Below, piece after piece: positions 39,701-49,590 of a DNA stretch of 64,000 nucleotides (the stretch's first letter is position 1; each line of letters starts with the position of its first letter). Made by a program: the position numbers and the translations under genes. Source of the stretch: a virus; the IMG/VR virus record IMGVR_UViG_3300030090_003700, positions 1-64,000 of that record. One strand, written 5' to 3'. The notes under the pieces are model-generated. The model did no database searches. It was not told the DNA's origin and saw only the letters and a program-made list of their open reading frames with translations.

Positions 39701-40465
39701 TTAAAGGTAATCAAGCACTTGCGAGGAATCAACGTTATCGATTAGACATTGTATAGCATCACGTTTTATTTGAGAAATACGTACATGAGCTGTGTTTACA
39801 TTAATATCTAATTTAGCCGCAATTTCGTTTGCAGAGTGCTTATCACAGTCAAGACCGTAACTTAATCTAAGTACTTCTTGCTGCTTAAAATCTAAATGCT
39901 TTTTCATTAGTTGTAATAAATAAGCATTGAGTAAATGTATGTTATATGGTTCTGATTTATCAATAACTTGATAAGCCATATTTTCATCATCATTTGGTTT
40001 ATCGTCAATACTTGCAAATACACTATTAAAAAACATTGCAACCATTTTTTCATCTTTTGGGTTGCGTCTTATTTCATTTAGTTTATGTTCAGGAATGCGT
40101 ACGCCGCCTCTATTAATATCTACGGCTCTACGTACGGCTCCTTTAATTCTTTTTGATAGAAATGATTTAATTGTTTTTTCTTGGTCGTCAGACTCAGCTA
40201 AAACAGTTCGGTCTAATTTACTAACCGCTGCTGTAAGCCCCGCCGCACCTTCTTGTAATAAATCATTTATACTTAATACACCTGACGCTTGGTCTGAGGT
40301 GGATTGTTTTCTTGCTAATGTTTCAACTAACGGTAAAAAGTTAATTACTATTTCTTCGTTTGTTAAATACGTATAATCACCGTCAATTGGTTTTCTTACA
40401 CGTTTAACAGCTGCTTCAACTTCTTTCTTGTATCTAACATAATTAGCTATGTTATACTTTCTCAT
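39701..40465 (-). CDS. Phage-encoded sigma-70-family factor
   Basis: 254 residues. Region 2 is recognisable: NFLPLVETLARKQ, INDLLQEGAAGLTAAVSKLD (core-binding 2.1-2.2) and FLSKRIKGAVRRAVD followed by RGGVRIPEH (2.3-2.4 and the start of region 3). Region 4 has QQEVLRLSYGLDCDKHSANE and a helix-turn-helix IAAKLDINVNTAHVRISQIKR, which reads the -35 element. It would direct host RNA polymerase to phage promoters, perhaps the repeated minus-strand motif or late promoters. Its start overlaps the upstream gene by 4 bp (ATGA). Confidence 0.85.
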   Translation of the reverse strand: MRKYNIANYVRYKKEVEAAVKRVRKPIDGDYTYLTNEEIVINFLPLVETLARKQSTSDQASGVLSINDLLQEGAAGLTAAVSKLDRTVLAESDDQEKTIKSFLSKRIKGAVRRAVDINRGGVRIPEHKLNEIRRNPKDEKMVAMFFNSVFASIDDKPNDDENMAYQVIDKSEPYNIHLLNAYLLQLMKKHLDFKQQEVLRLSYGLDCDKHSANEIAAKLDINVNTAHVRISQIKRDAIQCLIDNVDSSQVLDYL

Positions 40466-42706: not shown

Positions 42707-42977
42707 ATTCTATATCTTCGTTATTAGTTACCATCCATTCACAATCACCTAATCTGTGACCTGCACCTAATAAAAATGCTTCACAAGATTCATGGTCTGG
42801 ATTCCATTCGTTTTCTTCGTTACATAATGCTCTAACATTATATCTATATACTTTACCATCGTTAAAGTCTAGTACAAATATATATTTAGTACGCTCAAAT
42901 TTTTCTTTACGAGCGTGGTTAATAATATTATGTAATTCACTACCATGTTCTAATTCGTATGCTTTACTGCTATTCAT
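42696..42977 (-). CDS. Small acidic protein, unknown
   Basis: 93 residues. TKYIFVLDFNDGKVYRYNVR forms a probable beta-hairpin, followed by an acidic Cys/His-containing end (HESCEAFLLGAGHRLGDCEW). Such hairpin proteins occur in many phages near early genes. No function recognised. It overlaps both neighbours by about 10 bp. Confidence 0.55.
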   Translation of the reverse strand: MNSSKAYELEHGSELHNIINHARKEKFERTKYIFVLDFNDGKVYRYNVRALCNEENEWNPDHESCEAFLLGAGHRLGDCEWMVTNNEDIEYGN

Positions 42978-43428
42978 CTTCTTCTAATTTATATTCACCA
43001 GTGTCTAATAGTTCTTCTTTCTTTTGGTCAAACAATTCCTCATATACATCAGGCCACCAGTTTTCTAGTTCATAATTAAAATCGTATTCCATATCACTCC
43101 ATAAGTTTGGGTCTACCCATACGTTACAACCAGCAGTTAATTCTTGAACAGCCTGCTCTGACCATTCAGAATAATCTTCATAGTAGTAACCGTCTTGTGA
43201 TACATAAGGTCTAGACTCAAAGGTACACCAATATATATCGTAAGAATCACAGGTCATTTCACTATATATTTTTAAGGTATACTTGTCGTCAATAAAGTCA
43301 CTTGTATTGTCTAGTGTGCCTCCGTATTCTGATTGGATATACTCTAGTAACCAAGGACCATCTGGCTCTTCCATGAAGCCATCTTCATTTAGTTTTTCGA
43401 TGATTATTTCATCAGTTAAAATTTCCAT
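42970..43428 (-). CDS. Acidic protein, unknown
   Basis: 152 residues with a very low pI (many Asp/Glu and Trp/Tyr), for example YYEDYSEWSEQAVQEL and LENWWPDVYEELFD. It lies just 3' of the tRNA and ncRNA and may share their transcript. Acidic aromatic proteins of this kind can act as DNA mimics against host defence enzymes; here that is only a guess from composition. Confidence 0.55.
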   Translation of the reverse strand: MEILTDEIIIEKLNEDGFMEEPDGPWLLEYIQSEYGGTLDNTSDFIDDKYTLKIYSEMTCDSYDIYWCTFESRPYVSQDGYYYEDYSEWSEQAVQELTAGCNVWVDPNLWSDMEYDFNYELENWWPDVYEELFDQKKEELLDTGEYKLEEDE

Positions 43429-43449
43429 AATTAATTGATTTTCAGTTAG

Positions 43450-43524
<75 letters not shown>

Positions 43525-43532
43525 ATAATATT

Positions 43533-44004
43533 TTAGGGTGGTATTGTGCACATACCCACGCTTTCTGAGGTTTCCGTCTTAGCCGTGCACTACTATTTCA
43601 AGCTGTGACTATTCTTAAGTTACCGTCCTTCGTGTGTTACCCTAAGGCATTGCCCATGACTCGGTTAGATTCAGTGTAATACACTCCCGTACGTACCTCG
43701 GCAATTACCCCGTATACATCACATACACCTACTGTTACCACGTCTCGGTCCAGCCTCTGTCTCGGGTCGCTCATAGTGCCTTTGTAAAACCAGTCACTAG
43801 CGGTGCGCCTCTGACATTAATATTTTCGGGGGAAGAAACCCCAGCAGTCTCTTCTCATTACAGGTGATTCACATATCGGCACTTAGTCCCTAATGTGATT
43901 TGCCTTGGGAGTCACCAACCCTTAAACGAGCCATTCACTTATGTGGTGTAACGGAATTTTACCGTACTTGGTTTGAACCACCGTGCTAAACTTGCACACC
44001 CTAA
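43533..44004 (-). ncRNA. Large structured noncoding RNA candidate (~470 nt)
   Basis: No gene of useful size lies here, and G+C is about 47% (hand count, 43561-43980) against ~30% around. On the minus strand the ends pair: TTAGGGTG (44004-43997) with CACCCTAA (43540-43533). Inside are: GTGC/GCAC (43997-43983); ACGG/CCGT (43965-43951); TCACAT/ATGTGA within GGTGA/TCACC (43916-43863); GGGG/CCCC (43842-43828); TAGTG/CACTA with a further CGC/GCG (43802-43768); AGTGT/ACACT (43685-43673); and GGTAT/ATACC (43556-43540), whose loop is the palindrome GTGCAC plus A. It lies directly 5' of the tRNA. Size, phage setting and tRNA neighbour recall GOLLD and ROOL RNAs; membership is untested. Confidence 0.7.
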
Positions 44005-44019
44005 TTAAGTTACTCGTCT

Positions 44020-44211
44020 CTATTTACGCCGCCATGCTCTGTGAACACTTGCAGAAACTTCTTGGCTGACGATTTGTATAGTGTTACCCGTCTTGCCGCT
44101 GATAATTGGAACGTAACTATATTGACGTATAGCACTGCAGGAAACGCAAGTACTATAGCCTAAGGCGATACGGCCAGCGGGTATTACATTTGAACATTTA
44201 CATTTTTTCAT
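44020..44211 (-). CDS. DksA/TraR-like small zinc-finger protein
   Basis: 63 residues. CKCSNVIPAGRIALGYSTCVSC supplies four Cys (4, 6, 22, 25) in the layout of the C4 finger of DksA/TraR proteins, which bind in the secondary channel of RNA polymerase; the long coiled-coil arm is absent. The second half is unrelated (VPIISGKTGNTIQIVSQEVS). It could tune transcription with the phage sigma factor, but a different zinc protein is possible. It is the last gene before the structured RNA on the same strand. Confidence 0.55.
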   Translation of the reverse strand: MKKCKCSNVIPAGRIALGYSTCVSCSAIRQYSYVPIISGKTGNTIQIVSQEVSASVHRAWRRK

Positions 44212-44252
44212 ACACTTATAATATCAAATCTATTTCGTGTTAGGCTTGTAAT
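44211..44252 (-). promoter_or_regulatory. Recurrent minus-strand motif, copy 3
   Basis: Minus strand: TTACAAGCCTAACACGAA, then GATTTGATATTATAAGTGTA, ending at the zinc-finger gene start. The 5' half codes the end of the upstream gene. If a promoter, it would serve the zinc-finger gene, the ncRNA and the tRNA. Confidence 0.6.
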
Positions 44253-45897: not shown

Positions 45898-45913
45898 TTC
45901 TTAATTTTTATTA

Positions 45914-45955
45914 GTTACATATTAAATATCAATTTAGGTTCGTGTTAGGCTTGTA
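45914..45955 (-). promoter_or_regulatory. Recurrent minus-strand motif, copy 5
   Basis: Minus strand: TTACAAGCCTAACACGAA, then CCTAAATTGATATTTAATATG, in a gene-free stretch. This copy and copy 7 do not overlap any coding sequence, so the conserved bases are not explained by protein ends. Confidence 0.65.
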
Positions 45956-45977
45956 AAAGTATATTAACTGTTTAGTA

Positions 45978-46016
45978 GTAAAAAAAGAGATTCAGGTGTA
46001 GTTCTTACTCTCTTTT
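45978..46016 (-). terminator. Minus-strand terminator-like hairpin
   Basis: AAAAGAGA (46016-46009 on the minus strand) pairs with TCTCTTTT (45990-45983) and a run of T follows. It would end a leftward transcript that passes through the noncoding island 46017-46273. Confidence 0.6.
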
Positions 46017-46273
46017 CTTGTAAAGTAAAAATAGTGACGTTAGCTAGTAATATTAGTAATAATAGTGAGCTTTTGTCACACTATTTACCGGCATGACGAT
46101 CTGTCGTGTTAGTAACTTTATATGACAATACGTCATACGGTGACAATTCCGGCGCGGTTTTTGCTATACGCTATGCTATACGCAAATGCTATACATTTGC
46201 TATACACCGAAACCCTCCGGTGCCGAGTGATACTTTCCGTATATCTTGCCTTTGGGTTTGGTGATTAGAGAGT
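46017..46273. other. GC-rich noncoding island with hairpins
   Basis: About 43% G+C (46081-46260) and no gene. It has several inverted repeats: ATGAC/GTCAT (46122-46136), GCAAATG/CATTTGC (46182-46200), CACCG/CGGTG (46205-46222) and AGAGAGT/ACTCTCT at the edge (46267-46293). A leftward RNA would end at the hairpin 45978-46016. It may be a second small RNA or part of a replication origin. Confidence 0.5.
46162..46205. repeat. TGCTATAC iteron-like repeats
   Basis: Four copies of TGCTATAC at 46162, 46174, 46187 and 46198, spaced 12, 13 and 11 bp, close to one helical turn each. A fifth copy is at 47087 in the other noncoding island. Regular spacing suggests a protein-binding array such as an origin or operator. 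Confidence 0.65.
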
Positions 46274-47023: not shown

Positions 47024-47042
47024 AGTAATTTATTTTTTAATT

Positions 47043-47085
47043 GTTACACTTATAATATCAAATTAACTACGTGTTAACCTTGTAA
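47043..47085 (-). promoter_or_regulatory. Recurrent minus-strand motif, copy 7
   Basis: Minus strand: TTACAAGGTTAACACGTAG, then TTAATTTGATATTATAAGTG, 19 bp before the first leftward gene and in noncoding DNA. It is the best-placed copy to be a promoter. Confidence 0.65.
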
Positions 47086-47320
47086 TTGCTATACGCCATG
47101 CGGCGTTGAGGTCCCCAGGAAAAGCCCAATATCTACACGAATTTTTATATATACTATACACAACCGCACGACCTGATAGCACCGAATCCCGAGAACCTCG
47201 ATTGCAAACGGCAAAACAGCATGGGGGCTGCGTTTAAAAATAACGTTTCCGGTTACAAGGGTGGCACGACAAGGCTATGCGTAACCCTTTTCCTCCCTAT
47301 ATCTTATAATATACGTACCT
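47086..47320. other. Divergent noncoding island (origin/regulatory candidate)
   Basis: About 48% G+C (47101-47280), no gene. Contains a TGCTATAC copy (47087-47094), a strong ACGCC/GGCGT hairpin with a 4-base loop (47093-47106) and a GGTTAC...GTAACC inverted repeat (about 47251-47286). It separates leftward and rightward transcription, a usual place for an origin or for divergent promoters. Confidence 0.5.
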
Positions 47321-47433
47321 TATAATAAATAATGTTATTATTTATTTATATATGACATAAGATATAATTATATAATAGTAGGTAGCAAGCGTCGCATTAT
47401 TAAAATTTACTATTTTTGAGTAATAATATAGAT
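47321..47433 (+). promoter_or_regulatory. AT-rich leader of the rightward block
   Basis: Nearly pure A/T DNA with an 8-bp inverted repeat ATAAATAA/TTATTTAT (47325-47345). It probably holds the promoter for the chaperonin block or an easily melted origin element. I could not place a -10/-35 or a TTTG/TAnnTTTG pair with confidence. Confidence 0.35.
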
Positions 47434-48024: not shown

Positions 48025-49590
48025 ATGGAGTACAATAATCCTAGTGAGATAGTAAAGAATCTGTCTTTCGGGGCAGATGGAAAAGATAAAATAATGCACG
48101 GGGTTGACAAATTAGCAAATGCTGTTAAATCAACCCTTGGTGCTTCAGGAAAATGCGTAATATACGAAGACGCATTAGGTCGGCCGGTTATAACAAAAGA
48201 CGGTGTAACGGTAGCAGAATCCGTAGTCTTATATGATCCGGTCGAAAATATAGGCGCAACCCTTATAAAGGAAGCGGCTAGGAATACAGTTAAAGAAGCT
48301 GGAGACGGCACAACAACAGCGACAGTGCTTGCGCAGGCATTGTTGCATTTAGCATATGCGAAGATTGAGGAAGAGGGTGTACGTAATATTAAATTAGGTA
48401 TATCCTCCGCCCTTGATAAAGTAACTGAGCACTTACAGGAGGAAGCAATTCCCGTCAAGGATGACATGTTAAGATCCGTGAGTGCTATTAGTTGCAATAA
48501 TGATGAAGCTCTAGGAAATATCATATCGCAAGCCTATTCGAAAGTAGGTAAGGATGGTGTCGTCCTAATGGAAGAGTCTGAGACCCATGACACATACGTT
48601 AAATTCGTAGAGGGCACCAGAATAGAAGGCGGACTCAAATCGCCACATTTTATGACAGATAGGGATAAAGGTAAGGCAGTACTAGACAATCCGTACGTAC
48701 TAATAGTATCTTCGCCAATACCCAATATTCGTAAAATACAAAATGTATTGGAGTTTGTTATTAAAAAGAAAAGGAGCTTATTAATCGTTGCAGGCGTAGA
48801 GCAACAACCTATGGCGGCTTTATTAGCTAACAAGGTAAAAGGCAATATAAAAGTTAATGTTGTAGATCTGCCTGGATTCGGACCAACTAAGCAAGATACA
48901 GTAGAAGATCTTGCGATATTGACTGGAGCTAAAATTATAAATGAAGAACTTGGTGATGATTTAGATTTAATTAATCCAGATGTTCTTGGTGAAGCTAAGC
49001 AAGCTATAACCGATAGTACCCATACAGTTCTTCAAACTATAGATCAAGGTAATGTTACTAAAGAACGTATTGAAAACGTTGAAAAGAAAGTAAAAAAAGA
49101 AAAAGATCCGTACTTTAAGAAGAAGCAACAAGAACGTTTAGCTATGCTAAATGGGCAAGTTGCGATGATAAAAGTCGGCGCCGATTCTAAAATTGAGCTA
49201 AAAGAAAAGAAAGATAGGGTTGAAGACGCTATCTATGCAACTAAAGCCGCACTACAAGAAGGAATAGTATCTGGTGGTGGAGTTGCATTATTAGATGCTC
49301 ACTATAATATACAACCAGAAAATGAAGGCGAACGTATTTTATTAGAAGCTATAAAGTCTCCATATAAAACTATTTTAGAAAATGCTAATTTAGAATATAA
49401 AGAAACGGGAAAACAAGGAACGGGTGTTAATGTTGTGTGTAATAAATCAGTTAACATGATTAAAGCTGGTATTATTGATCCTGTACTTGTAACTAAAACA
49501 GCACTAAAAAATGCAGTTAGCGTTGTTAATACTATAATTTCTGCAGATTGTGTAATTTCAAATATAAGACTAGACAATGCAAGCAGTTAA
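48025..49590 (+). CDS. groEL: Phage-encoded GroEL-type chaperonin
   Basis: 521 residues, a group I chaperonin subunit. ATP-site motifs: KSTLGASGK, ITKDGVTVA, AGDGTTTATVLAQAL (93-107), RVEDAIYATKAALQEG with the catalytic Asp and IVSGGGVALL. The apical domain is intact (VEGTRIEGGLKSPHF; LLIVAGVEQQPMAALL). The hydrophobic GGM tail of bacterial GroEL is missing. With its GroES overlapping by 14 bp it should form a dedicated folding machine for phage proteins. The 5' half is richer in G+C (~43% in sampled lines) than the 3' half (~28%). Confidence 0.92.
   Translation: MEYNNPSEIVKNLSFGADGKDKIMHGVDKLANAVKSTLGASGKCVIYEDALGRPVITKDGVTVAESVVLYDPVENIGATLIKEAARNTVKEAGDGTTTATVLAQALLHLAYAKIEEEGVRNIKLGISSALDKVTEHLQEEAIPVKDDMLRSVSAISCNNDEALGNIISQAYSKVGKDGVVLMEESETHDTYVKFVEGTRIEGGLKSPHFMTDRDKGKAVLDNPYVLIVSSPIPNIRKIQNVLEFVIKKKRSLLIVAGVEQQPMAALLANKVKGNIKVNVVDLPGFGPTKQDTVEDLAILTGAKIINEELGDDLDLINPDVLGEAKQAITDSTHTVLQTIDQGNVTKERIENVEKKVKKEKDPYFKKKQQERLAMLNGQVAMIKVGADSKIELKEKKDRVEDAIYATKAALQEGIVSGGGVALLDAHYNIQPENEGERILLEAIKSPYKTILENANLEYKETGKQGTGVNVVCNKSVNMIKAGIIDPVLVTKTALKNAVSVVNTIISADCVISNIRLDNASS

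Follow-up and report, generated by a model that had tools for sequence, protein, structure and literature searches.

An array of small RNA domains with exchangeable hairpins beside a phage tRNA-Met gene, and tmRNA-like units at the same site in related phages

Results

The locus, its genes and its composition

The window, meaning the whole stretch of 64,000 nucleotides analysed here and whose coordinates are used throughout, belongs to an uncultured phage whose IMG/VR record comprises 64,493 bases. On its minus strand a gene for a 63-aa protein with a CxC...CxxC pattern (44020-44211) and a gene for a 152-aa protein (42970-43428) enclose a region in which tRNA-Met with the anticodon CAT (43449-43524, minus strand; ARAGORN; Rfam, 65.7 bits) is the sole plausible gene. 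An ORF survey of the window gave no plausible gene in 43533-44019, hereafter the array, which has a G+C content of 46-47% compared with about 33% in its flanks. The initial annotation had thus rightly described a gene-free stretch beside a tRNA with raised G+C (about 47% against about 30% by its estimate) and a spacing of 8 bases between the end of the array at 43533 and the start of the tRNA at 43524 on the minus strand. The longest internal ORF, and the only one of 45 aa inside the array (43637-43774), is interrupted in the relatives after 17 (L004), 16 (L002) and eight (L003) codons; therefore no reading frame is conserved, and a protein-coding reading of the array was rejected.

The 63-aa gene is conserved in the relatives used and always precedes the array, with a stop codon that abuts the first domain. 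Upstream of both lies a promoter-like motif, CAAGCCTAACACGAAATAGATTTGATATTATAA (44214-44248, minus strand), one of five copies of CAAnnnTAACACGAAnnnnnTTGATAnTAT in the window (46799, 45945, 45373, 44240 and 39110), each of which lies at the start of a minus-strand gene; shuffled sequences gave 0.22. The motif may act as a promoter of the 63-aa gene and the array.

The large terminase subunit (TerL) of the phage shares 62% identity with its counterpart in the podovirus record MW202828 and 44% with the terminases of Flavobacterium elemo phages, and the other matches were to phages of Flavobacterium, Cellulophaga, Tenacibaculum and Maribacter, which places the host, probably, in the Bacteroidota. 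The phage also encodes a GroEL-like chaperonin (48025-49590, plus strand), a sigma-factor-like protein (39701-40465, minus strand) and, at other positions, both subunits of ribonucleotide reductase. A second conserved non-coding stretch with repeats of GTATAGCA (45898-46273, minus strand) matches L002, the closest relative, at 85% identity from end to end, and L003, L004, L181 and L200 at 79-86% along most of its length. A gap of 392 nt between divergent gene blocks (47024-47415) holds a GC-rich stretch in AT-rich surroundings without an ORF of at least 60 aa, and is possibly an origin or another RNA.

Database searches and folding energy

Searched with Rfam at gathering score, the whole window yielded the tRNA alone and no match to GOLLD, ROOL, OLE or HEARO, and none of these four matched 43400-44250 at E values up to 10 either. 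GOLLD, ROOL, OLE, HEARO and any other Rfam family were consequently discarded as an identity for the array. The suggestion of a divergent GOLLD or ROOL was not borne out; its alternative, a new class, holds.

The minimum folding energy of the array is about that of shuffled sequence (z = 0.13; single domains -0.2 to -1.6). The internal hairpins previously reported are indeed predicted, but with energies no better than chance, so that hairpins in a single sequence prove nothing and the case has to be made by comparison; the support for a structured array comes from there and not from energy.

Among 50,697 phage records none matched the array significantly; hits to named phages were either the tRNA or chance. 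A search of 85,000 prokaryote genomes (257 billion bases) returned two unrelated 18-mer matches, and a bacterial source of the array was discarded, as neither has a second socket strand (see below). In the 42 kb examined of the nearest named phage, MW202828, neither an array of this kind nor a tRNA or Rfam match appeared. The 5' signature of the first domain was present in 71 IMG/VR stretches; a variable-gap pattern for the fifth domain gave mostly chance matches and a few further copies.

Domain anatomy

Relatives' loci were gathered by means of the 63-aa protein (80 loci) and the downstream 152-aa protein (six loci), and in most of them the corresponding position is taken by roughly 150-650 nt of GC-rich non-coding sequence. 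By this comparison the region between the 63-aa gene and tRNA-Met is not one closed molecule of the GOLLD or ROOL kind but an array of about five small, exchangeable domains (D1-D5, all on the minus strand). It is well supported by the comparison that D1, D3, D4 and D5 share one build, in which a pair of conserved strands (the socket) encloses a variable hairpin (the plug).

D1 (43924-44019), available in 58 distinct copies, has an outer stem (44019-44013/43930-43924), socket strands GACGAGTARCTTAATTAG / ACRTAAGTGAAT (44018-44001 and 43944-43933) and a plug (44000-43945 in the window) of 8-140 nt among the copies. In distinct rows, the six pairs closing the plug are standard in 89.9% of cases, compared with 52.8% (maximum 63.1%) when the 3' sides are permuted, with two-sided changes in six of six pairs and up to six pair types; the outer stem is paired in 94.5% compared with 84% (maximum 87.5%), and four of its five pairs have changed on both sides. 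The second stem is nearly invariant and uninformative in either direction. These permutations are uncorrected for kinship, which is an unlikely source of the pairing because many plugs are unrelated to each other. Read on the tRNA strand, the plug stems contain 21 G-U and two A-C cells, which indicates RNA on this strand. The internal loop AGTA/GAA, on our reading, resembles the loop-E (sarcin-ricin) motif.

D2 (43816-43923) is a lineage-specific hairpin region with a putative structure, common only to L002 and partly L181. D3 (43759-43815; socket AGGCGCACCGCTA / TATGAGCGACCCGA, plug 43797-43775) was found in five distinct copies with different plugs. D4 (43645-43756) has the socket GGTAACAGTA (43739-43730) / GAATCTAACCG (from 43672) around a plug at 43729-43673.

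D5 (43533-43644), known in 15 distinct copies but present in a minority of arrays, comprises the socket CACGAAGGACGGTAA / ACCTCAGAAAGCGTG, a plug (43619-43572) and a 3' hairpin (43556-43540). This hairpin covaries (GGTAT/ATACC, GATAC/GTATC, GGCAC/GTGC, GGCGT/GCGTC, GGTAC/GTGCC), and its observed pairing of 97.5% was reached by one of 2000 permutations, a statistic that is modest for this hairpin alone because variants are few. Its loop hexamer (43546-43551) is a palindrome in all copies, GTGCAC and once, in L211, ATGCAT, and is thus a candidate self-kissing loop of the pattern found in retroviral dimer initiation sites; D5 RNA may dimerise through it, a proposal resting on one two-sided change.

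Those results bear on the 8-bp pairing of the ends reported before. The strands TTAGGGTG (44004-43997) and CACCCTAA (43540-43533) are present as described, so that the original observation stands as far as the non-coding, GC-rich stretch is concerned but not for the end stem as a structure: within D5 its 3' half has a local partner (GGGT...ACCC, retained among the D5 copies recovered), and other arrays with D5 (L003, L004, L054) lack its 5' half. A single RNA closed by this stem was accordingly rejected.

Exchange of plugs and turnover of the array

The same plug families recur in more than one socket, and compensatory changes rebuild their closing stems each time. The family TATGTG...CGGRAGTGTATTA, which is the D4 plug of the window, fills D1 in L004, L145, L146 and others, D5 in L091, L201 and L211, and the tmRNA-like unit (see below) in L043, each with different closing stems. 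The plug core CACAGCTTGAAATAGTAGTGCACG lies in D5 of the window, L054 and L206, in a related form in D4 of L002, and free-standing in L013, L039 and L040, on stems such as CAACC/GGTTG, CAATC/GATTG and AGTT/GACT. Further families are common to D1 and the tmRNA-like units and to D1 and D3.

Blocks of 30-60 nt recur at other positions in other phages with about 80-100% identity, and domain order, number and kind differ even between close relatives, in which a closing stem of the whole is not conserved. The 63-aa gene of L002 and its tRNA each share 97% nucleotide identity with those of the window, and yet blocks of the array between them are swapped, replaced or added; compared with L002, the array has turned over faster than its neighbours.

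tmRNA-like units in the relatives

A tRNA-like domain (TLD) of tmRNA type, lacking the mRNA part, was found by pattern search at the array site in 53 of 75 related phages with enough sequence at this site. Its layout is GGGCGTG-AAATGGTTAG-[plug]-AAC-GCAGG-TTCGATT-CCTGC-CACGTCC-A with variants, comprising acceptor stem, D-loop with GG and T-arm, and no anticodon arm. In four records, representing a second TLD type, elements match the Rfam tmRNA model in acceptor stem, D-loop and T-arm with 60.6-65 bits (cut-off 47), and those of the first type stay below the cut-off with about 31-45 bits; since the model also gives weak matches in archaeal controls, we relied on the strong matches and on a table of acceptor stems. 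The units lack about 300 positions of the model, which make up its entire mRNA-like part, and a test for a complete tmRNA revealed no mRNA-like domain with a tag reading frame in the relatives' elements. When phage records were queried with a TLD, a piece the size of the T-arm was matched and nothing more.

The acceptor table is restricted to elements that begin with GG and form six or more acceptor pairs, so that G1-C72 and G2-C71 are partly selected for and are not evidence. All of its variants (GGGCGTG, GGGGGTG, GGGAGTG, GGGTAAC, GGGCGCG, GGGTGTG, GGGCATG) have G3:U70, kept while pair 4 is C-G, G-C, A-T or T-A, and all but two copies have A73; a few AGGCGTG/CACGCCT elements with T73 and without G3:U70 fall outside the selection. 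G3:U70 together with A73 constitutes the alanine identity of tRNA-Ala and tmRNA, which the selected TLDs of the relatives share. Downstream of the 63-aa gene, L037, L042, L053, L056, L070 and L073 hold another tRNA-like type, which has AACTAG...CTAGTT at its ends, a hairpin of the TACCGACGGGTA type and a T-arm but lacks G3:U70.

The tmRNA model matched nothing in the window or in the records of L002, L003 and L004, two of the relatives' records being fragments. The D4 socket of the window forms the insert of a tmRNA-like TLD in L027, L174 and L201, which ties the window array to the TLD system.

Discussion

Taken together, the comparison indicates a non-coding array with structure conserved on the tRNA strand, made of sockets and swapped plugs, at a site where most relatives hold alanine-type tmRNA-like TLDs. 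The initial proposal of a structured non-coding phage RNA outside Rfam is upheld by the strong covariation, the compensatory changes and the G-U tolerance on the minus strand, although its membership in GOLLD or ROOL is not. Two of the outcomes named in advance as refuting it, a conserved frame and a lack of covariation, did not occur.

As to function, we tentatively favour the view that the array provides RNA mimics or decoys which bind host RNA-handling proteins and whose recombining hairpins keep up with changing targets. Short structured RNAs would be transcribed together with the 63-aa gene and tRNA-Met and processed into pieces, each fixed two-strand socket presenting an exchangeable hairpin; they would bind host proteins, most plausibly those of tRNA and tmRNA metabolism and ribosome rescue, and recombination would swap the hairpins as the targets change. 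This view is favoured because of the compensatory stem changes, the tolerance of G-U and the plug families common to different sockets, because the array outpaces its neighbours in turnover and follows a promoter-like motif, and because TLDs without an mRNA part occupy the same site, keep G3:U70 and include D4 as an insert. It also has a precedent: mycobacteriophage DS6A encodes a TLD-only tmRNA, and a molecule of this kind is reported to be a strong inhibitor of tmRNA whether or not it can be charged, perhaps through titration of SmpB (PMC4131195, PMC11915505). Against it stands the fact that the window and its three closest relatives, two of them represented by fragments, have no TLD, so that the best hint at function comes from phages less closely related; an equal purpose of the window array, itself free of TLDs, would hold by analogy. 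The rapid exchange of plugs could also be neutral instead of target-driven. A broader formulation, for which we claim somewhat less, is that of a combinatorial RNA display: fixed sockets, with alanine-chargeable tmRNA mimics among them, might present hairpin cassettes; if true, cassettes traded among sockets and genomes would counter host RNA-binding proteins or defences.

The main rival, which we consider unlikely but which does not exclude a decoy function, is a single self-associating RNA, held together by the palindromic D5 loop and other loops as a scaffold or cage like GOLLD and ROOL, with the plugs as variable peripheral arms. The self-complementarity of the loop, kept in GTGCAC and once in ATGCAT, and a tRNA neighbourhood like that of GOLLD and ROOL, RNAs with kissing loops among their contacts (PMC12286853), would fit such an assembly; the lack of a fixed overall architecture, with domains that vary in order, number and kind even in close relatives, the restriction of D5 to a minority of arrays and a palindrome resting on a single two-sided change argue against it. 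Rather improbable is also that each module acts alone as an independent small regulatory RNA, for example as an antisense or protein-sponging RNA for host or phage messages: the domains are self-contained and occur singly elsewhere, but their conserved parts are internal-loop motifs within stems and not open seed regions.

Two further explanations carry less weight. That D5 and its neighbours mature or stabilise the adjoining phage tRNA as a processing leader is suggested by the frequent position of D5 a few bases upstream of tRNA-Met, but D5 copies without a following tRNA in L206 and L214, and the many arrays without an adjoining tRNA, make this very unlikely. A DNA-level element in which the RNA is incidental, such as a hot spot of recombination, a packaging site or a cruciform-bearing origin, could account for the very rapid replacement of blocks here; with stems that tolerate G-U far above A-C (21 compared with two), as RNA would, and clear tRNA- and tmRNA-like parts at this position and on this strand in the relatives, we regard it as scarcely credible.

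If the decoy reading is true, the arrays represent an unrecognised RNA layer of phage-host conflict. The arrays lend themselves to many natural tests, of binding between modules and partners, of alanine charging of the TLD units, of a block of ribosome rescue and of why phages keep such arrays.

Among known systems, bacterial tmRNA (RF00023) shares with the relatives' elements the acceptor stem, G3:U70, A73, D-loop and T-arm; these elements differ from it in lacking the mRNA-like domain, the second TLD type leaves no room for a tag frame and pseudoknots, and the window has no such element at all. With the TLD-only tmRNA of DS6A, the site in most relatives has in common a phage-encoded TLD without the mRNA part (PMC4131195, PMC11915505), but the relatives' TLD holds exchangeable hairpins within an array of other domains, and the window is without a TLD. 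GOLLD and ROOL are likewise large, ornate phage RNAs of unknown function, often beside tRNA genes and with kissing-loop contacts (PMC12286853), from which the window array departs by the missing Rfam match and by small domains without fixed order or overall architecture; the palindromic D5 loop is compatible with a GOLLD-like self-association.

Neither large phage RNAs next to tRNAs nor tmRNAs reduced to a TLD are novel; what we rate as new is the architecture of the array. Phage T4 encodes the small stable RNAs C and D, of unknown function, among its tRNAs, and the array would be comparable as a source of small phage RNAs in a tRNA neighbourhood; to our knowledge, an exchange of sockets and plugs is not known for them. 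We know of no other socket array with hairpins exchanged among sockets and phages, nor was one found in the literature searched, which covered few subscription journals. RNA families normally vary around one architecture, whereas here small structured modules move between defined positions and phages with their pairing restored, something like gene cassettes at a scale of 30-60 nt.
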